Assembly (NCBI RefSeq): GCF_020804225.1
Contig: NZ_WJBI01000012.1
Coordinates: forward strand, 19,375-59,770
Length of the DNA: 40,396 nt
Reading direction: 5' to 3'
Origin: Methanosarcina sp. DH2
GTDB lineage: Archaea; Halobacteriota; Methanosarcinia; Methanosarcinales; Methanosarcinaceae
Part shown: positions 18,094 through 30,647 of the stretch, piece by piece
Numbering within the stretch: the first letter of the stretch is position 1
Layout: each line of letters starts with the position of its first letter
Made by a program: the position numbers and the translations under genes
Notes under the pieces: generated by a model
What the model was told of the DNA's origin: nothing
What the model saw: only the letters and a program-made list of their open reading frames with translations
The model's database searches: none

Positions 18094-18156
18094 CAATAAG
18101 ATCAATAAGATCAATAAGATCAATAAGATCAATAAGATCAATAAGATCAATAAGAC
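18094..18156. repeat. 9-bp tandem repeat CAATAAGAT, seven copies
   Basis: Six perfect units and a final CAATAAGAC. It is just downstream of the small membrane gene, after three looser CTTATC/CTTTATC words. It is not a CRISPR array: there are no spacers. Confidence 0.9.
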
Positions 18157-19206: not shown

Positions 19207-19437
19207 TTGGAAGTGCTGGCAAAATACAGACATCATGCGCTTGTCCAAGGCTTCATGGTCTTTATATCCATTCGAAGTCCTGTCAAACAAAACCTACCAT
19301 AACCCCTACTACAAGCCCCCTATAGAACGAGACTCGAGAAATTTGATTACAAAGGCTTCAAGCTTAAAGAAAACCCGTATCTGGGCTTCTTATTGCATTA
19401 CATATTCAGAAGATTAGTTATCCAGTTTAAAAAATAG
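19207..19437 (+). pseudogene. Possible small-protein relic with one in-frame stop
   Basis: Behind AAAGGAGG (19192-19199) a frame from TTG 19207 reads LEVLAKYRHHALVQGFMVFI, is interrupted by TAA at 19300-19302, and continues to FDYKGFKLKENPYLGFLLHY and a TAG at 19435. An overlapping frame (19187-19417) is also open, so the coding frame is not certain. No family recognised. Confidence 0.25.
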
Positions 19438-20656: not shown

Positions 20657-21799
20657 TCAGATCTTTTTAAGCATAAGGGACATTATGCCCGACCTGGAAG
20701 GCTTCATAGATTGAGGCTGGAACATATCCATCATGCCAGAGGATCCGAACATTTCCTCGTTGACCCGGCTGGTTATTTCATCGAATATCATCTTATAGGC
20801 GACGCAATGCGGGTCGACAGCTTTTACTTCCCCCTCAGTGGGTACTAAAGCATTGTAAGGGCATCCGCCTCTGCAGTACTTGATATGGGCGCATTTGCCG
20901 CATGCAGTGTCTACAAACTCCTTAAATTTGTGCATGAGCTTCCAGGCATCGGATTGAGCGAGGTCTGCCATTGTCGGGCGGTCATAGACGTTTCCCATTA
21001 CATATTCAGGCATCCCTACGAAGCGGTAGCAGGGATATATTCCTCCGTCCGGACCAACTGCAAAGGTATCTCCCATGCAGTCCACGAAGGTGCAGACAGT
21101 GCCCCTGCCTGTGAACACACATTTGCACAGGTGGTCAATATTCATAACCTCAATTCTGCCCATGTTTTCGAGATATTTGTCAAGAAGGTAAATTAAGAGT
21201 TCTCCGTACTCTTCAGGGTCAAGTGCCCATTTCTCGGGGTTGTCACCCTTCAAAGACGGCAGGCAGGGATGCAGTTTAAGTGTCAGGCCTTTTTCCAGGT
21301 AAAAATTAAAAATATCCTCTTTGAACTTCACAGAGTGGGAAGTAAAAGTAGTAATGAACCTCACATTCAGCCCATGGGCTTTTGCAATCTCGTAGCCTCT
21401 CATTGTCTTTTCATAGTATCCCTTTCCCCTCTGCAGGTCATTAAGCTCCTGCGGACCGTCCAGGCTGGAGCCGATCGGAATATTGTATCTGGCAAAAATC
21501 TCGGCTATTTCCGGAGTAAGTTTCCAGAGGTTTGTCTGTATGGCAAAAGCAATTTTTCTGGAACTCAAACCCTCAACCAGCAGGGGTAAGGCTTCTCTGT
21601 AAAATTCTTCCCCTGCAAGGAGAGGTTCTCCACCATGGAAAGTAAAAGTAACCGAGTCCTGCCTGAAGATTTTCAGCCATTCAACCACTTCTTTTATGGT
21701 TTCAATGCTCATTATCGGGGATTTTTCCTCAGAACTCCAGCAATAATTGCAGTTAGCAGGACAGCCCAGGGTAGGGATTAGCATCACATGAAAAGGCAT
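20657..21799 (-). CDS. cbpB: Peptide-modifying radical SAM/SPASM enzyme, methanogen type
   Basis: The radical SAM cluster motif is C13-PAN-C17-NY-C20, followed by FTFHGGEPLL and SSLDGP. The C-terminal SPASM region supplies the auxiliary clusters: CTFVDCMGD, GGIYPCYRF, CGKCAHIKYCRGGCPYN and a last DPHC. This matches the anaerobic sulfatase-maturase/RiPP-maturase group and, as far as I recall, the methanogen family annotated CbpB (TIGR04083). Such enzymes install carbon-centred crosslinks or other changes in a small precursor peptide. GGAG 8 nt before the ATG supports the start. The small frame upstream containing SWCDW is the candidate substrate. Confidence 0.8.
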   Translation of the reverse strand: MPFHVMLIPTLGCPANCNYCWSSEEKSPIMSIETIKEVVEWLKIFRQDSVTFTFHGGEPLLAGEEFYREALPLLVEGLSSRKIAFAIQTNLWKLTPEIAEIFARYNIPIGSSLDGPQELNDLQRGKGYYEKTMRGYEIAKAHGLNVRFITTFTSHSVKFKEDIFNFYLEKGLTLKLHPCLPSLKGDNPEKWALDPEEYGELLIYLLDKYLENMGRIEVMNIDHLCKCVFTGRGTVCTFVDCMGDTFAVGPDGGIYPCYRFVGMPEYVMGNVYDRPTMADLAQSDAWKLMHKFKEFVDTACGKCAHIKYCRGGCPYNALVPTEGEVKAVDPHCVAYKMIFDEITSRVNEEMFGSSGMMDMFQPQSMKPSRSGIMSLMLKKI

Positions 21800-22791: not shown

Positions 22792-23469
22792 TCATTTCAG
22801 TTTTGCCCTTGCGGACTCTACTGAACTTTCACTAACAACTTTTCCGGCAAAAACGTCAGCAAGAAGCTCAAGTTCGTCCTCAGAATGGTTTTTTGTGAAA
22901 GTCATGAGCGACAGCTGCCTCAATACAGGAGTTTTGTTATTATGGCGAATGTGCCATACTTCGTGAGCAATTACGGCTTTTAATTCCGAGTCGTCCATCA
23001 GTTCAAGCATTCCCATTGATAAGAAAATGCTTTTTCCCGAAGCAAATGCCCCGGGTACTGCTGAATCATAATAATACACCTTTGCTCTGTCAGTTAGACT
23101 ATTCACAAATGCCTGAGGCCAGTCCATGATATCTGTAATTGGCTGGGCGCCATATCTTCGGATCAGGATTTTGTAATAAACTCTTGGCAGGAGTATAATA
23201 ATTACAGTTGAAAGAATGACGTAGGCGGTATAGATTTTAATTGTCAGCATTTGACTGCACTGCATAGCGGAAACAATCGTGCCTATAACAGAGACCATGA
23301 ATAGCTGTGCAGCAATGAACGAAGAAATCCTGAGAACCGGTTTTCTGGCTCTAAGATAAAACGTGAAAAGCAGAAAAGCCAGGAATGCCTGTATCCCTAT
23401 TAATGGCAAAAGGTCGGAGCCGGTGATGCATGTAATATAACAGTCAATTTCCTGTGTTATGGAGAACAT
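22792..23469 (-). CDS. Membrane metallopeptidase (M48/BlaR1-like M56), partner of the BlaI-type repressor
   Basis: 225 residues with three hydrophobic segments in the first 100 and then a gluzincin domain: H169-E170-VW-H173 and the downstream ExLAD (E201-LLAD205). VPGAFASGKSIFLSMGML (quoted in part PGAFASGKSIF) is the usual strand before the active-site helix. It lacks the penicillin-sensor domain of BlaR1, so the trigger must differ. It follows the repressor gene by 43 bp on the same strand. The simplest model is that it cleaves, directly or not, the BlaI-type repressor or a partner lipoprotein on a membrane signal. Confidence 0.8.
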   Translation of the reverse strand: MFSITQEIDCYITCITGSDLLPLIGIQAFLAFLLFTFYLRARKPVLRISSFIAAQLFMVSVIGTIVSAMQCSQMLTIKIYTAYVILSTVIIILLPRVYYKILIRRYGAQPITDIMDWPQAFVNSLTDRAKVYYYDSAVPGAFASGKSIFLSMGMLELMDDSELKAVIAHEVWHIRHNNKTPVLRQLSLMTFTKNHSEDELELLADVFAGKVVSESSVESARAKLK

Positions 23470-23512: not shown

Positions 23513-23872
23513 TTACTTATTATTTTTGTAAGTATGAAAGTTTTCAATAGCTACCTTGCCGAAGGTATCTACAAGACTGTCCAGTACTTTCTTTGTGATG
23601 GTGTTTGCTGTATTGTCCATAGACTCGGTTGCAGAGTACAGATACCGGACTCTGTGGCCGCTTTTATCTATAGTTCTTTTTGCATAACCGGCTTTTACAA
23701 GTCTGTCAAGTGTCCCTGCTACGCTGGATAAAGGGATACCTGTTTTTTCGGTAATTTCCGGCGTTGTTGACTCCTGGTTTGTCCACAAAACATGCATAAT
23801 CTGGGCTTCAATGGGACTGAAAAATTTGGTTAAACCCTCATTGGAAAGATTTATTCGGTCTAACTTAACCAT
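23513..23872 (-). CDS. BlaI/MecI/CopY-family transcriptional repressor
   Basis: About 119 residues. The winged helix FFSPIEAQIMHVLWTNQEST is followed by TPEITEKTGIPLSSVAGTLD and RLVKAGYAKRTIDKSGHRVR (each quoted separately), the standard Penicillinase_R layout, then a C-terminal helix for dimerisation. The minus-strand TATA box (CTTATATTT, 23894-23902) lies about 26 bp before ATG 23872, so the mRNA is probably leaderless and starts at MVKLDRINL. A GTG at 23926 is upstream of the TATA box and rejected. It is divergent from the ABC operon, with three operator-like sites between. Confidence 0.85.
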   Translation of the reverse strand: MVKLDRINLSNEGLTKFFSPIEAQIMHVLWTNQESTTPEITEKTGIPLSSVAGTLDRLVKAGYAKRTIDKSGHRVRYLYSATESMDNTANTITKKVLDSLVDTFGKVAIENFHTYKNNK

Positions 23873-23984
23873 GGCTTTACAACTGCTGTAAACAAATATA
23901 AGCCTTGTGATGAGTTCTAAGGTCACTGTTTTTCAGTCCTGACATGTTTAACCTCGGCTAGTTTATCCTTTTTGTCTCAGGCAG

Positions 23985-24059
23985 TTTACATCTGGCGTAA
24001 AGTTAAAGTACGTTTACACTCAACGTAAAGTCAGGCATTTACATCAGATGTATAGTAAA
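23985..24059. promoter_or_regulatory. Array of three 17-bp operator-like sites TTTAC-N7-GTAAA
   Basis: Site 1 is 23985-24001 (TTTACATCTGGCGTAAA), site 2 is 24013-24029 (TTTACACTCAACGTAAA), and site 3 is 24038-24054 (TTTACATCAGATGTATA, one imperfect arm), with a further GTAAA at 24055. Spacing is 28 and 25 bp, close to whole helical turns. Extra half-sites ATGTAA occur near 24069 and 24117. BlaI-type repressors bind TACA/TGTA dyads, so this is the likely binding region for the adjacent repressor, controlling both arms. Confidence 0.75.
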
Positions 24060-24179
24060 TTCTATTCAATGTAATATTCGATTCAGTTGTATCCGATTTT
24101 ATTTGATATTTGATCCAATGTAAAAATTGAAAGGTAAGCCATTGAAAGGTGAATCGGTAACATATATTGAGGATTAAAA

Positions 24180-25355
24180 ATGCGTTTACATTCGTTAGTC
24201 TTAAAAGACATATCCCGCAGGAAAACAAAACTCGGGCTGGCAGTGTTGAGTGTGGTAATAGCTGCTGCAGCAATAGTAGCTGTAGTCACCACATTTTCCG
24301 CAGCAACTGACGGTCTCTATGAAGAATCAAATAAATTCGGAGCAAACATCATCGTCAGACCCGAAGTAACAACCATTCCGCTCGTTGCGGGTTCAACCTC
24401 TATTGGTTCTTTGTCTACGGGAGAGAACTACATTGAGGAATCGGAAATTCCCAGAATTCATACTATCCAGAATAACAGTAACCTGGCAGTTGTAGCTCCC
24501 AGATTGTACGGGGTTGCAGAACTTGATGATTCTTCTGTCGTTATAATGGGTGTGGACCCTGAAAAGGAAAAAACCCTCAAGCCCTGGTGGAAAATCCAGG
24601 GGCACTGGATGGCTGCAAAAACCCCTGAGAAAACCGAAGTAATGGTCGGCTCGGATATAGCCGGTCCCCTTGGGCTCAAAGAAGGATCTCCAATAACCCT
24701 CAGCCAGGGGAATATTTCAATTGATGCTCAGGTTGCCGGCGTAATAGAGAGCACAGGCGGCAATGAAGATGGGTATGTGATTCTTCCTCTTGCGACATCC
24801 CAGTACCTGCTTTCCAAAGAAGGGAAAGTCAGCAGTTTAGAAGTCCGGGCACTGTGTAATGACTGTCCTGTCGAAGAAATAAGCAGGCAAATAGAAGAAG
24901 TGTTCCCAGGACTTGAAGCCAGATCCATGAGCCAGATTGTAGAAACCGAAATGGCAGTTGTGGAACATACCGAGTCTTCGGCAATGGCAGTATCAATAAT
25001 TACCCTCCTCGTAAGCACATTAACAGTTGCATCCACAATGCTCGCATCCGTAAATGAAAAGCTAAAAGAAATAGGAATTATGCGCGCAGTCGGAGCAAGT
25101 AACAGGCAGGTCGTTTCCATGCTGTTCTTTGAAGGAGCAATTATCGGAATAATCGGCGGAGGTATCGGTTTTGCCATCGGAACAGCAGCCTCGTCGATTG
25201 CTGCGCCTATGCTGGTCTCGGTGTCGCCTTCGCCAATGTGGGAGATCCTGCCCGCTGTTGTCGGAATTTGCATAGTTACCGGAATGGTAGCTTCTATTAT
25301 CCCTGCAAAAAGAGCTCTCGGAGTTGACCCTGCGGAGGTGCTAAGAAGTGTCTGA
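24180..25355 (+). CDS. MacB/FtsX-type ABC transporter permease
   Basis: 391 residues: one N-terminal membrane helix after LVLKDISRRKTKLGLAVLSV, an extracytoplasmic MacB_PCD domain (about 40-270) with a CNDCP pair, then three C-terminal helices of the FtsX domain (INE-type EIGIMRAVGASNRQV coupling motif, then GFAIGTAAS). MacB-like pumps act on periplasmic or membrane substrates rather than carrying them through a channel. GAGGATT 6 nt before the ATG is the ribosome site. It is the first gene of a three-gene operon with its ATPase and a DUF2318-type lipoprotein. Confidence 0.88.
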   Translation: MRLHSLVLKDISRRKTKLGLAVLSVVIAAAAIVAVVTTFSAATDGLYEESNKFGANIIVRPEVTTIPLVAGSTSIGSLSTGENYIEESEIPRIHTIQNNSNLAVVAPRLYGVAELDDSSVVIMGVDPEKEKTLKPWWKIQGHWMAAKTPEKTEVMVGSDIAGPLGLKEGSPITLSQGNISIDAQVAGVIESTGGNEDGYVILPLATSQYLLSKEGKVSSLEVRALCNDCPVEEISRQIEEVFPGLEARSMSQIVETEMAVVEHTESSAMAVSIITLLVSTLTVASTMLASVNEKLKEIGIMRAVGASNRQVVSMLFFEGAIIGIIGGGIGFAIGTAASSIAAPMLVSVSPSPMWEILPAVVGICIVTGMVASIIPAKRALGVDPAEVLRSV

Positions 25356-26070
25356 TTATCTTGAAACTCTTGAAACATCCAATAATCCTGAGAACCTTTC
25401 AGAAAACCTGCTTGCAAACCTGATTCAGGTCAAAGACGTGACAAAAAAGTACAGGCTTGGTAATAACGAGGTAGAAGTCCTGCATGGTATTAATTTGGAA
25501 GTCAAAGCCGGAGAATTCGTATCCATAATGGGTCAATCGGGTTCCGGAAAAACCACTTTAATGAACATTATCGGGATGCTGGACAGACCGACTGAAGGAA
25601 GCATCCTTATCAAAGATATCGATATCACGAAAAAATCCCAGAAAGAACTTGTCGATTTCAGGCGAAGGACTGTTGGGTTTGTGTTCCAGCAGTTCCATCT
25701 CATCCCCTCTCTAACAGCCTATGAAAACGTCGCTCTGCCCCTTGTATTTTCCGGGGACAAGGATAATAGTGCAGTTGAAAGTGCTCTTGAAAGAGTCGGG
25801 CTGGCTCACAGGATGCACCATAAGCCGGTAGAGCTTAGCGGGGGAGAACAGCAGAGAGTTGCAATTGCCAGGGCTGTTGTTATGAAACCGAAAATTTTGC
25901 TTGCAGATGAGCCCACAGGGGCTCTTGATGCAACTACAGGTTCCATGATAATCTCTTTACTAAAATCACTGGCAGGAGATATGACTGTCATAATGGTCAC
26001 TCACAACAGTGAGCTTGCAGAATATTCGGACCGCATTGTATACTTAAAAGATGGAAATGTAGCGGAGTGA
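25348..26070 (+). CDS. ABC transporter ATPase (MacB/LolD class)
   Basis: Complete ATP-binding subunit: Walker A GQSGSGKTT, Q-loop FVFQQFHLIP, signature LSGGEQQRVAIARA, Walker B ILLADEPTGALD and the switch histidine in VTHNSE. It is about 240 residues with a 25-residue N-terminal extension. It starts at GTG inside the end of the permease gene (8-nt overlap), with GGAGGTG 8 nt upstream, so translation is coupled. It drives the adjacent permease. Confidence 0.92.
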   Translation: MSDYLETLETSNNPENLSENLLANLIQVKDVTKKYRLGNNEVEVLHGINLEVKAGEFVSIMGQSGSGKTTLMNIIGMLDRPTEGSILIKDIDITKKSQKELVDFRRRTVGFVFQQFHLIPSLTAYENVALPLVFSGDKDNSAVESALERVGLAHRMHHKPVELSGGEQQRVAIARAVVMKPKILLADEPTGALDATTGSMIISLLKSLAGDMTVIMVTHNSELAEYSDRIVYLKDGNVAE

Positions 26071-26567
26071 AAAAAATGAACATAAAATTAATCGGTATGG
26101 TTTTGTTAGCAATTGCAGTATCCCTTATGGTAGCGGGATGTACGGATATCGGGTCCTCGGGTAAAGCTAATGCAAGCTCTGTAAAAGCTACCTGGATTAA
26201 TGCTGAAGTCAGTGCAGATCAGGTATCCATTCCACTCAGTTCCGTAGAAGAGAACACAAATGTTCACTTTAAAGTAAACTCCGACAGCGGGGAAATTGCG
26301 GTCATGGCATACAAGTTTAATGATGAGATTTTTGTCAGGTCCAATGTATGCCCTCCATGCAATTCAATAGGGTTTACCCTTGAGAAAGACACTCTTGTGT
26401 GTGATTCCTGCGGCACTGTCTTTGATACTGCAACAGGAGCAGGCATTGGAGGAGGATGTGTGTCATTCCCTAAGGAAAGTATCCCTTACACGGTTTCGGA
26501 CGGGAATATTGTCATGAAACTCGATGATGTGGTAATTGCCCACGAAAAAACCGTGGAGATTAATTAA
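26067..26567 (+). CDS. DUF2318-like cysteine-rich lipoprotein
   Basis: Signal with lipobox LMVAGCTD (C25 lipid anchor). The C-terminal half has NVCPPCNSIGF, LVCDSCGTVFD and GAGIGGGC, the pattern of DUF2318, thought to bind Fe-S or another metal centre. DUF2318 proteins occur beside FtsX-type permeases and an ATPase in the P19/FtrABCD iron-uptake loci of bacteria such as Campylobacter. The three-gene set here resembles that, without the P19 or Ftr1 genes. GTG start overlaps the ATPase stop by 4 nt (GTGA); the ATG at 26076 is an alternative. Confidence 0.75.
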   Translation: MKKMNIKLIGMVLLAIAVSLMVAGCTDIGSSGKANASSVKATWINAEVSADQVSIPLSSVEENTNVHFKVNSDSGEIAVMAYKFNDEIFVRSNVCPPCNSIGFTLEKDTLVCDSCGTVFDTATGAGIGGGCVSFPKESIPYTVSDGNIVMKLDDVVIAHEKTVEIN

Positions 26568-26774
26568 GAGCCGTTAAGGGAAACGAAATTTCCATATTAA
26601 GCCTTAGGCAGTTGAATCATAATCACGCGAAACGGATTAATCAAACGCAATAGACTTACTGCCCAAAGACAAAACAGGGTAGTCGAAAGTTTATTGCTAT
26701 TGATTTTCAGCTCAACTGCGTAAGTCCTGACTCATTGCATGTACGAACAACCATTTATTTATGCTGGGCTTAAA

Positions 26775-27770
26775 ATGAATGAAATTGAAGTTAGAGAATT
26801 AATGCCATCCGAGTTTGAAGAATGGGATCAGCTTGTAGAAAAAACCCAACCCGGTACACCATTTCACACAAGCGATTGGCTGGAAATCTACAGGGATGTC
26901 CTATTAAGAGACATCAGGATTTATGGCTGTTTTAGAAACGATGACCTCGTTGGAGGATGCCCCCTTTTTGTTAAAAATATCAAAGGAATCCTCAAAGTGG
27001 CGTCTTCGATATGCAGTATGACTGATTACTGCGGACCCCTTATAAGTGAGAGCTCAAGCTCCAAAGCAAGTAAAAAAGTACAGGAAAGCCACGCAATTCT
27101 TAACTCCCTCAGGGAGTTCCTCTGCATGCAGGGCTTTGACAGTATTCACCTTAAGTTCTCCCCGGGATTTGAGGATATCAGACCATTCACCTGGAACGGA
27201 TGGGACTCAAAGGTTCACTATACCCATCACCTTGACCTGAAAGAAAATGTGGATAATAATATTTCAAGGACGATCCGGAAAGACCTTAAATCCGCATCTG
27301 AGGCAGGACTCGAGACAAGGAGATGGAGCGATCCTGAAACATATTATGGCCTGCTTTCCAAAGTATACGAGAGACAGAACCTGAAAATACCATTACCCAG
27401 GGATTTTTTCGAAAAGGTCTTTGACCTGATCAGGAAAAAAGACATTGGTTACATGCTTGTTTCCGAAACTCCAGAAGGAGAAGCAGTCGCAGCACATTTA
27501 ACCCTTTACGGAAAGAAAAGTACGATTTCCTGGTCTTCTGCCCGAGACCCGTCTTTTAACCTGAGGGGAACGAATGCTCTTCTTTATTATAATGAGTTTC
27601 TTGACCTGCAGTCCAGAGATTTTGAATACATGAACGTTATGGCAGGAAATGTTCCCAGATTTGCAGACTTTATTATGGCTTTTTCCCCTAAACTGGTACC
27701 TTACTACAGTGTAACTTTAGAGAATAAAAAGTATTCAGCCCTGAAGATTTTGCACAAAATCGTGACTTAA
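26775..27770 (+). CDS. FemAB/GNAT-fold acyltransferase-like protein
   Basis: About 331 residues with the two-GNAT layout of FemAB-like proteins: PFHTSDWLEIYRD at the start, SRTIRKDLKSASEAGLE in the middle (the RxxRxxxKA-type basic motif), and a C-terminal GNAT core with AAHLTLYGKKSTISWSSARD and ALLYYNEF. Relatives use aminoacyl-tRNA or acyl-CoA donors in cell-envelope synthesis. The substrate in an archaeon is unknown. The ATG at 26775 (MNEIEVREL) starts the domain; an upstream ATG at 26739 adds 12 residues, and a TATA-like ATTTATTTAT lies between the two. Confidence 0.75.
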   Translation: MNEIEVRELMPSEFEEWDQLVEKTQPGTPFHTSDWLEIYRDVLLRDIRIYGCFRNDDLVGGCPLFVKNIKGILKVASSICSMTDYCGPLISESSSSKASKKVQESHAILNSLREFLCMQGFDSIHLKFSPGFEDIRPFTWNGWDSKVHYTHHLDLKENVDNNISRTIRKDLKSASEAGLETRRWSDPETYYGLLSKVYERQNLKIPLPRDFFEKVFDLIRKKDIGYMLVSETPEGEAVAAHLTLYGKKSTISWSSARDPSFNLRGTNALLYYNEFLDLQSRDFEYMNVMAGNVPRFADFIMAFSPKLVPYYSVTLENKKYSALKILHKIVT

Positions 27771-28015: not shown

Positions 28016-28376
28016 TAGGGGTAATTTGTTGACATAATGCAGAGAAAACATATGGGGGCAGCTATTCAACCTCTGATACCTGCCACAAACCTTTCAGACT
28101 GATAAAATAGACAGTCTACTTATTGCCCCGTTTCAGGAACAACTTCTCAACTTCGTTAACATGGGTGTTGCTCGCGCAGTGCCCGGTGAGGTACAAGGTG
28201 CGATATTCAGGCAACGGTGTCTACTCCTATGAATAAAGGAGATTTCGCAATAGTTTCATTTCTAGCTCGTTATACATAGTTCCTGGCTGTAGAAAAGGCA
28301 GGTGGGACAATAAAAAAACGTCGATAAAAATGAATCACAGGTAAAAAATCATCAGGAAAAAAGGAGAATCATATTG
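28016..28376. other. Spacer between tRNA-Cys and metY
   Basis: No firm gene. Short frames through 28120-28235 are open in two registers (one reads AQCPVRYKVRYSGNGVYSYE to a stop) but unrecognised. A small hairpin CTCCT...AGGAG lies near 28227-28244. The 3' end carries the metY ribosome site AGGAGA. A structured leader is possible, but I cannot match a known riboswitch. Confidence 0.4.
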
Positions 28377-29672
28377 ATGGCGGCAAATAATTACAAATTA
28401 GGAACACTTGCCCTTCATGCTGGACAGAGCCCTGATCCGACTACAGGATCACGTACAGTACCGATATACCAGACAACATCATACGTTTTCCGCGACACGG
28501 AGCATGCAGCCAACCTATTTGGCCTCAAAGAGCTTGGCAATATCTATACCCGTCTGATGAACCCTACCACTGATGTGTTCGAGCAACGCATAGCTGCCAT
28601 TGAGGGAGGGACCGGAGCCCTTGGAGTTGCATCCGGTTCGGCAGCAATAACTTATGCCCTGTTAGCGATTACCCGCATAGGGGATGAAATCGTATCCGGC
28701 AATAACCTGTATGGCGGGACCTATGAACTTTTTAACTATACTTTCCCCAAACTGGGAAGGAAAGTTACATTCGTAGATTCAGCCGATCTAGAAGCATATC
28801 GCCAGGCTATCACGGAAAAGACCCGGGCTGTTTATATCGAATCGGTAGGCAACCCGAAGCTTGACGTTCCGGATTTTGAGGCGATTGCAAAAATTGCCCA
28901 TGAAGCAGGAGTCCCGCTTGTTGTCGACAATACAAGTGCTGTAGGGCTTGTCCGCCCCATTGACTACGGAGCCGATATAGTCGTGCATTCCGCAACCAAA
29001 TTCATAGGCGGGCATGGGAATTCGATCGGCGGCTCAATAGTCGATTCCGGAAAGTTCGCATGGAACAACGGCAAATTCTCGGAATTCACAGATCCTGACC
29101 CTAGCTACCACGGCCTGAAATACTGGGACACTTTTTCAGACTTCCCTGAGCTTGGTAATGTTGCATTTGTCTTTAAAGTAAGGTTGCAGCTTCTCAGGGA
29201 CACAGGTGCTGCTATTTCGCCTTTCAACTCATTCCTGCTGCTTCAGGGACTTGAGACCCTGCACCTGAGGATAGAGAGGCACGCCGAAAATGCCCTTAAG
29301 GTGGCAAAATACCTGTCAGAGCACCCGAAAGTCTCATGGGTCAATTACCCCGGCTTACCGGACCATCCAAGCCACGAGCTTGCAACCAGGTATCTCAAAG
29401 GCGGTTATGGTGCACTTCTGGGTTTTGGCGTAAAAGGTGGTGCAGAAGCAGGAAAACAGTTTATTAATTCTCTAAAACTGTTTTCACATGTTGCGAATAT
29501 AGGCGATTCCAAGAGCCTTGTCATCCATCCCGCAACCACCACTCACCAGCAGCTAACCCCTGCCGAGCAGGAAGCTACAGGCGTCACGCCGGATTACATC
29601 CGCCTATCCGTGGGCATTGAAGATATAGAGGATATAATCTCAGACCTCGAGCAGGCTCTTGAAAAAGTATAA
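28377..29672 (+). CDS. metY: O-acetylhomoserine (thiol)-lyase / homocysteine synthase
   Basis: 431 residues, a full-length PLP enzyme of the Cys/Met metabolism family. The start [20 protein letters not shown] (20 residues) and [18 protein letters not shown] are typical of MetY. The PLP lysine is in [11 protein letters not shown], and the C-terminal [12 protein letters not shown] and IRLSVGIED match sulfhydrylases. It makes homocysteine (with sulfide) or methionine (with methanethiol) from O-acetylhomoserine. ATG at 28377 is preceded by AGGAGA at about 10 nt; a TTG just before it is not needed. Neighbours are tRNA-Cys and, 3.2 kb away, a nitrogenase-like operon. Confidence 0.93.
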
Positions 29673-29990: not shown

Positions 29991-30647
29991 ATGAAGATCA
30001 CTGTGAGCAGGAATGGCCCGTATATCGTGACCGGTAAAGTTCCACTTATTGTCTCGGAGATTTGCAATGACGAAGAGGGCTACTGCAGAGACTGGCGGGA
30101 AGTCAAAAGATACCCTTTGAAGGAACGGTATGCTCTATGCCGTTGCGGTCATTCAGAGAACAAACCTTTCTGTGACGGGACACATACAAAGGTTCACTTT
30201 GACGGAACCGAGACCGGAGACTATAAGCCCTATACTGAAGGCGTGAACATTATTTCCGGCCCTGTGCTAACTCTAACCGACAATAAACATCTATGTGTCC
30301 ATGCTGAATTCTGCTTACGAGCAGGTGGAATATGGAAGCTTGTGAGACAGTCCTATGACCCTGAGGCCAGGGATACAGCCATTGAAGAAGCATGCAACTG
30401 CCCTTCCGGCAGGCTGGTAATCCTGGATAATGCCACCGAAAAGGCGATTGAGCCTGAACTCGAGAAGTCCATAGTTGTTGTTGAATATCCCCCTCGCGAC
30501 GAACACGGTCCGCTCTGGGTACGCGGTGGCATCCCCATAGAATCCGCAGATGGTAAAAAGTACGAAATCAGGAATCGGGTCACTCTTTGCAGGTGCGGAA
30601 AATCGAAGAACAAGCCTTTCTGTGACGGTAGCCATATTGAGAGATAA
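29991..30647 (+). CDS. Double CDGSH iron-sulfur domain protein
   Basis: 218 residues with two CDGSH-type motifs: CRCGHSENKPFCDGTH (about residues 50-65) and CRCGKSKNKPFCDGSH near the C-terminus. Each supplies three Cys and one His for a 2Fe-2S cluster. Between them CVHAEFCLRAGG and CNCPSGRL form a ferredoxin-like (divergent 4Fe-4S) segment. Expected to be a soluble redox or cluster-transfer protein. No partner gene is adjacent. A separate ATG frame at 29945-30037 in another register overlaps the start and may be chance. Confidence 0.85.
   Translation: MKITVSRNGPYIVTGKVPLIVSEICNDEEGYCRDWREVKRYPLKERYALCRCGHSENKPFCDGTHTKVHFDGTETGDYKPYTEGVNIISGPVLTLTDNKHLCVHAEFCLRAGGIWKLVRQSYDPEARDTAIEEACNCPSGRLVILDNATEKAIEPELEKSIVVVEYPPRDEHGPLWVRGGIPIESADGKKYEIRNRVTLCRCGKSKNKPFCDGSHIER

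Follow-up and report, generated by a model that had tools for sequence, protein, structure and literature searches.

What does a BlaI-type repressor control in an archaeon when the membrane protease encoded beside it lacks a beta-lactam sensor? The question is raised by a divergent five-gene locus of Methanosarcina sp. DH2 (assembly GCF_020804225.1, here G000, a Methanosarcina-type genome of 4.6 Mb), located within the 40,396 nucleotides from position 19,375 to 59,770 of contig NZ_WJBI01000012.1 (forward strand), which we analyzed as a whole and call the window. We consider it probable, from comparison of sequences, that repressor and protease form, in archaea that cycle methane or reduce iron, a two-gene proteolytic switch that would signal conditions on the outside of the membrane, be it thiol redox or the supply of metal or heme, and would control envelope redox genes. 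We also lean, with less assurance, towards a wider regulon in which a cysteine-sensing M48 protease and its BlaI-type repressor would govern cytochrome c maturation and envelope thiol and metal handling in anaerobic methanotrophic archaea of group 2d (ANME-2d) and Archaeoglobaceae, and a single ABC operon in Methanosarcinaceae. The comparison covers gene order, operators, operator targets and conserved residues, and from these we infer DNA binding, membrane topology, the signal, cleavage and the transported matter. The genes of the locus, in window coordinates, are:

22792-23469, minus strand: M48-type membrane zinc protease of 225 amino acids with three helices (PF01435, alignments, hydropathy)
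23513-23872, minus strand: BlaI-family winged-helix repressor of 119 amino acids (PF03965; start kept in 20 genomes)
24180-25355, plus strand: MacB/LolC-type permease of 391 amino acids (PF12704, MacB_PCD, and PF02687, FtsX)
25348-26070, plus strand: LolD/MacB-type ABC ATPase (PF00005)
26067-26567, plus strand: FtrD-like (DUF2318) lipoprotein with a conserved ATG at 26076 (PF10080)

The repressor and protease genes share the minus strand, with the protease 43 bp downstream, and diverge from the permease-ATPase-lipoprotein operon on the plus strand (24180-26567). An earlier, sequence-only reading of positions 23513-26567 had named a repressor, a membrane protease and a MacB-type ABC/DUF2318 operon; Pfam matches confirm these genes, including that of the protease (22792-23469), which lies outside that segment. 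The repressor scores 36.5 bits against PF03965 (cut-off 22.6) and its Archaeoglobaceae ortholog 58 bits, in agreement with the BlaI type proposed there. Its start is conserved at ATG 23872 and not at GTG 23926, up to which the frame stays open. The association of an archaeal repressor with a membrane metalloprotease devoid of a beta-lactam sensor was likewise borne out, as no penicillin-binding domain was found.

Between the two arms we found copies of a 17-bp dyad, TTTACA-N5-TGTAAA in its core form and TTTACRN5YGTAAA in its refined form, arranged with the promoter elements as follows:

23876-23892, unstranded: operator O1, TTTACAACTGCTGTAAA, filling the gap between the repressor TATA box and the ATG
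23895-23902, minus strand: TATA-like box CTTATATT of the repressor gene, 22 nt before the ATG
23985-24001, unstranded: operator O2, TTTACATCTGGCGTAAA
24003-24010, plus strand: putative TATA region of the ABC operon, TTAAAGTA, between O2 and O3
24013-24029, unstranded: operator O3, TTTACACTCAACGTAAA, an exact match
24038-24054, unstranded: operator O4, TTTACATCAGATGTATA, with one mismatch

The sequence-only reading had counted three well-spaced operator-like sites; the sites are real and their number is four. The refined pattern occurs three times in the window, always within the divergent intergenic stretch, with 0.02 sites expected from shuffles. The 20 orthologous intergenic stretches, which are related by descent, hold 75 sites when one mismatch is tolerated, against 0.5 expected from shuffles that preserve base content only. 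At this threshold O1, O2 and O3 are present in all 20 stretches and O4 in 15, and their spacing is fixed: the distance from O2 to O3 is 28 bp in 18 of 20 stretches and that from O3 to O4 is 25 bp in 14 of 15. The TATA-like box of the repressor gene is located 21-24 nt ahead of its ATG in all 20 genomes, with O1 in between, and the repressor mRNA is presumably leaderless, with O1 over the start site. The shortest loci (L074-L077) have a clear TTAATATA or TTGATATA box between two operators, 22 nt ahead of the permease ATG; in the window itself positions 24003-24010 are the likely TATA region of the ABC operon.

The divergent block is shared by 20 Methanosarcinaceae genomes from Methanosarcina, Methanolobus and two other genera, the lipoprotein being beyond the contig end in three of them, so that the linkage of the two arms, on which the sequence-only reading had made itself depend, survives. 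Protease and lipoprotein either co-occur or are both absent, as seen in Methanosarcina (Fisher P about 4e-5) and again in the Methanolobus-type genus (Fisher P about 1e-6), the exceptions across both being one contig end and one fragment. One complete Methanosarcina genome (G103) retains both arms only as broken remains, in two partial copies (L090 and L091, G103:C1:118000-131000 and 998000-1011000) in which the protease, ATPase and lipoprotein genes are interrupted by stops and incomplete.

Does the pair act beyond this block? A scan of named genomes found it in some 15 records, nearly all of Ca. Methanoperedens, where it stands without the ABC/lipoprotein arm. There the repressor is about 62% and the protease about 45% identical to those of the window, the two genes overlap by 4 bp, and the repressor is preceded by O1 (TTTACGTCAATTGTAAA and variants) in the same position as in Methanosarcinaceae. 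The protease is present in 33 of the 34 genomes of the Methanoperedens family. Counting exact matches, which misses weaker sites, and with several genomes being fragmented metagenome-assembled genomes, TTTACRN5YGTAAA gave 410 sites in these 34 genomes, compared with 73 when the reversed control pattern was counted, and outnumbered it in every genome; 18 genomes without the pair had no excess (26 against 40 for the control). The unrelated targets in Methanoperedens, together with this negative control, constitute the strongest evidence. Upstream positions relative to an open reading frame account for 76 of the 89 sites in the six Methanoperedens genomes read, and targets were named by Pfam matches above cut-off. 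Recurrent among them are CcmE (with CcmF next), CcdA/DsbD_TM, thioredoxin-like, NapH-like Fer4_5 and YHS proteins, and an Lrp-type regulator with a TRASH domain, which CcmC adjoins in two loci; a cupredoxin is also found, and CcmH and CopZ/CopA bear an operator in one genome each. Among the named targets, genes for an ABC ATPase, CcmE, thioredoxin-like proteins, CcdA, Lrp-TRASH regulators and NapH-like proteins are the commonest. A MacB-type ABC operon that in many cases diverges from ccmE is a recurrent target, and since its ATPase is about 45% identical to that of the window, this operon is a target kind common to both lineages. In the MacB-type ABC operon of Methanoperedens/Archaeoglobaceae loci (L140:516-1769 and L211:3020-4273, both minus strand), a secreted CARDB-like protein of 417 residues occupies the place of the Methanosarcinaceae DUF2318 lipoprotein.

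A profile search of the phylum revealed the protease in a third group, taken as Archaeoglobaceae, where the pair again stands without the ABC/DUF2318 arm. A CcmF/CcmH operon lies beside the protease or the pair in 10 of 11 loci (in one example CcmF_C reaches 163 bits and CcmH 66 bits), and most loci have TTTACA-N5-TGTAAA-type sites near the head of this operon, sometimes two of them 25 bp apart. This gene order is independent evidence for the putative cytochrome link. The sequence-only reading had also described a self-contained system, which did not hold, as in Methanoperedens and Archaeoglobaceae the pair is found without the ABC/DUF2318 arm and in association with cytochrome c maturation genes; the repressor-protease pair is older than the ABC/DUF2318 operon. 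CcmH matches above the PF03918 cut-off were seen in Methanoperedens and Archaeoglobaceae (L174:2109-2582, L211:6725-7144 and L211:9109-9540 on the minus strand, L213:3108-3530 on the plus strand); according to an account of the archaeal Ccm machinery (PMC9084895), ccmH is missing from most archaea.

Which of the two proteins would perceive the signal? The protease scores 38 bits against PF01435 (M48; cut-off 20.3), and its Pfam matches are this family and DUF5700 only. No M56 peptidase domain was matched in Pfam, so we rejected the M56/BlaR1 class, and the BlaR class assigned by the sequence-only reading gives way to an M48-like one. The chain stops 20 residues past ExxxD, with no C-terminal penicillin-binding sensor domain. 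Its closest PDB sequence match is HtpX (3cqb, E 2e-5), also the nearest among named families, and the nearest named relative found, from Methanosarcina sp. 2.H.T.1A.6, is 93% identical. It carries the motifs HEVWH (169-173) and E201xxxD205; across 17 sequences from Methanosarcinaceae and Methanoperedens, Cys10, Cys14, Cys71, Met69, Met74, HExWH (with a variable middle position) and ExxxD are invariant. Hydropathy gives three hydrophobic helices. The N-terminus and the second loop have few or no positive charges, and the first loop and the stretch after helix 3 have many; this charge distribution, the sole basis of the topology, predicts the Cys10/Cys14 N-terminus and the Met69/Cys71/Met74 loop outside and the HExWH...ExxxD zinc site inside. 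The repressor has no conserved Cys in an alignment of 20 + 9 sequences, and the C-terminal CxC metal sites of CopY are therefore lacking; nor was an obvious ligand site seen in it. For want of conserved Cys in the repressor, CopY-like direct metal sensing was rejected and the protease is the likelier sensor.

In the mechanism that we propose, a dimer of the BlaI-type repressor would occupy the TTTACA-N5-TGTAAA operators. At O1, between the TATA box and its own start codon, it would repress itself and the protease, and two or three operators would cover the putative promoter of the divergent ABC/DUF2318 operon. A signal received at the predicted outside residues Cys10, Cys14 and Cys71 (and Met69 and Met74) would activate the cytoplasmic M48 zinc site, and the activated protease would cleave the repressor and open all operators, as BlaR1 does by cleaving BlaI (PMC9834060). 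The switch would accompany cytochrome c maturation in Methanoperedens and, judging by gene neighbourhood, in Archaeoglobaceae. In Methanosarcinaceae it would have narrowed to one ABC operon, with the MacB-type transporter and the four-Cys Rieske-fold lipoprotein as single output; in its simplest reading, this device would transfer reducing power, or else a thiol/metal ligand, through the membrane, as has been suggested for FetA-FetBCD.

Some observations weigh against the switch or its cytochrome link. In genus g7, ten genomes retain the lipoprotein (plus the ABC genes where read) without the pair; therefore, the operon does not need the switch. No operator sites were found upstream of the g7 permease, and for this reason the same control of the ABC arm was rejected for that genus. 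In ten pair-bearing Methanosarcinaceae genomes the sites lie mostly in the divergent intergenic stretch and the remainder is near the control number, with no operator excess beyond the locus; because of this, the cytochrome link in this family is by descent only. The genome of the window has 13 sites of the TTTAC-N7-GTAAA form against 9 for the control, 10 of them outside the locus, and further operons of the repressor in this genome were rejected, since the extra sites are about the control number. One site there that fits the refined pattern (L102) is solitary, with neither a second site nor a redox gene nearby. A PDB sequence search with the repressor returned only a penicillinase repressor (1p6r, E 0.84), a weak BlaI match, and no match to BlaI or MecI of Staphylococcus. 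Finally, AlphaFold2 gave a poor model of the protease (predicted local distance difference test, pLDDT, 54), too weak for a structure search.

What might the ABC/DUF2318 operon do? Its permease has an invariant CxxC (C226, C229) between the MacB_PCD and FtsX domains and is closest to LolE in the PDB (7arh, E 8e-18), LolC/E being nearest among named families. The best NCBIfam match of the ATPase, whose N-terminal extension is variable, is TIGR02211 (LolD), below its cut-off; the curated LolCDE/MacB cut-offs (TIGR02211, TIGR02212, MacB) are not reached by these proteins and only domain-level Pfam matches are. The lipoprotein, correctly assigned by the sequence-only reading to the DUF2318 domain of Fet/P19 type, matches PF10080 and has the Cys set C92PPC95-x13-C109DSC112-x15-C128, an exact fit to the motif CxxC-x13-CxxC-x(14,15)-C described for the DUF2318 domain of FetA (PMC6083913). 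Its AlphaFold2 model (pLDDT 81) has a Rieske-like fold with four Cys and finds Rieske ferredoxins by Foldseek (E 1.6e-5). With these (5bok, 2i7f and others) the predicted domain shares the fold (TM-score about 0.7 by target), but it has two CxxC pairs instead of CxH/CxxH ligands and a fifth invariant Cys. In Methanosarcina sp. KYL-1 the lipoprotein (L064:6150-6644, minus strand) lacks the lipobox Cys (AAGLAEN, not AGC) and may not be lipid-anchored. In Campylobacter, FetA and FetBCD are considered to supply the iron importer with reducing power (PMC10783030). As the Methanosarcina genomes lack FTR1, a general export of reductant or of a thiol/metal ligand seems more likely for this operon than iron import.

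Iron is the subject of one rival explanation, that the locus is an archaeal form of the P19/Fet importer (FetMP-FetABCDEF) in which the ABC transporter and DUF2318 protein aid ferrous iron uptake and iron shortage leads to repressor cleavage. We hold this improbable. The FetA-type Cys motif (PMC6083913) is in its favour, FetBCD is likewise an ABC transporter, none of whose parts C. jejuni can do without when iron is low (PMC10783030), and Methanoperedens operators lie near Fet-type parts (MacB-type ABC beside FTR1 in L164, YHS, thioredoxin-like). However, FTR1, present in some other genera, is absent from six of six Methanosarcina genomes tested, four of them bearing the system (G000, G081, G085, G096); on this absence a full P19/Ftr importer was rejected, and the central part of the P19/Ftr analogy drawn by the sequence-only reading fails. 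Moreover, the operon encodes a single permease and a single ATPase in place of the two permeases and one ATPase of the Fet type, it contains no P19, YHS or thioredoxin gene, the FTR1-DUF2318 genes of Methanoperedens are not among the operator-bearing genes read, and operators are found most often at cytochrome c maturation and ABC genes. A copper or thiol-toxicity switch, in which the outside Cys/Met set would bind Cu(I) and the regulon would protect or repair envelope thiols and c-type cytochromes, appears just as unlikely. Three Cys and two Met are invariant on one predicted face of the protease, the targets include CopZ/CopA, cupredoxin, YHS and TRASH-domain proteins, and the copper repressor CopY belongs to the BlaI superfamily (PMC7253601); yet only one genome read has an operator at CopZ/CopA, the Methanosarcinaceae locus has no copper gene, and the same Cys/Met sites could equally bind heme or serve as a redox pair.

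It is still less probable that the repressor alone is a ligand-binding regulator and the M48 protein a housekeeping protease outside the switch, even though cleavage is deduced by analogy and PF03965 relatives such as CopY function without a protease (PMC7253601), because the two genes remain adjacent from Methanosarcina to Archaeoglobaceae (with the 4-bp overlap in Methanoperedens) while targets change, and the repressor shows neither conserved Cys nor obvious ligand site. The least probable is an envelope or lipoprotein-sorting stress system, in which an HtpX-like protease and a LolCDE/MacB-like transporter would respond to misfolded membrane or lipid-anchored proteins: the nearest families (LolC/E, LolD, HtpX) suggest it, but the LolCDE cut-offs are not reached, the other operator targets are cytochrome and redox genes and not chaperones or sorting genes, and the invariant Cys sets, carried by three of the proteins, suggest a redox or metal role.

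Around the locus, a peptide-modifying radical SAM/SPASM enzyme (TIGR04083, 717 bits, cut-off 300; 20657-21799, minus strand) adjoins the protease gene, and no precursor peptide for it was identified among the listed small frames nearby. Directly 3' of the lipoprotein gene lies a FemAB/GNAT-type acyltransferase gene (26739-27770, plus strand). It occupies the equivalent position in G081 and G085, both Methanosarcina, and a 52% identical one stands beside the broken copy in G103. Further on, a gene whose product combines two CDGSH iron-sulfur stretches with a Fer4_19 domain (29991-30647, plus strand) comes after one for O-acetylhomoserine sulfhydrylase (28374-29672). A perfect 9-bp tandem repeat, CAATAAGAT, in 6.9 copies, occupies 18094-18155, a stretch with no assigned gene.

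In the literature searched we found no description of how cytochrome making is regulated in archaea that depend on multiheme cytochromes. A search on BlaI with Methanosarcina, BlaI with M48 and archaea, and Methanoperedens with CcmE and a regulator, with subscription journals and preprints mostly outside it, returned nothing, and we are inclined to believe that the proposed Cys-sensing protease/BlaI-type regulon is so far undescribed in archaea. The locus supplies a defined repressor, a protease, an exact operator and a target list open to testing. If true, the BlaI-type proteolytic switch of antibiotic resistance would be used in archaea for transmembrane redox or metal reporting.

How does this system compare with those already known? 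Resembling the archaeal Ccm machinery described in part of PMC9084895, the ccmE, ccmF, ccmC and ccdA families bear or adjoin the operator in Methanoperedens, and Ccm families lie beside the pair in Archaeoglobaceae; that portion of the account describes the M. acetivorans machinery without mention of a repressor, and in Methanosarcinaceae the operator is found at the ABC/DUF2318 locus only. With Campylobacter FetABCDEF/P19 (PMC6083913, PMC10783030) the locus shares the DUF2318 Cys motif and an ABC transporter, but in Methanosarcina a free lipoprotein replaces the FetA of eight transmembrane segments, there is one permease, control is by BlaI/M48 and not Fur, and FTR1 (genome) and P19, YHS and thioredoxin genes (operon) are missing. 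CopY, which belongs to the BlaI superfamily/PF03965 and operates without a protease, recognizes the MecI/CopY core TACA-N2-TGTA (PMC7253601). The CopR-CopY repressors thus share the superfamily and the TACA...TGTA half-sites, whereas the archaeal repressor has no CxC metal motif and has a protease partner, and its operators differ from that core, with the TACA and TGTA half-sites 5 bp apart. The closest parallel in design is the staphylococcal beta-lactam switch BlaR1/MecR1-BlaI/MecI (PMC9834060): in both, the gene of a winged-helix repressor adjoins that of a membrane gluzincin (HExxH...ExxxD; in BlaR1 this site faces the cytoplasm), the operators are inverted repeats of the TACA/TGTA type, and self-repression, presumed for the archaeal pair, goes with a divergent target. 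Unlike it, the archaeal system has an M48-like and not an M56 protease, three predicted-outside invariant Cys in place of a penicillin sensor domain, TTTACA-N5-TGTAAA and not TACA-N2-TGTA operators, archaeal promoters, and redox and cytochrome targets.

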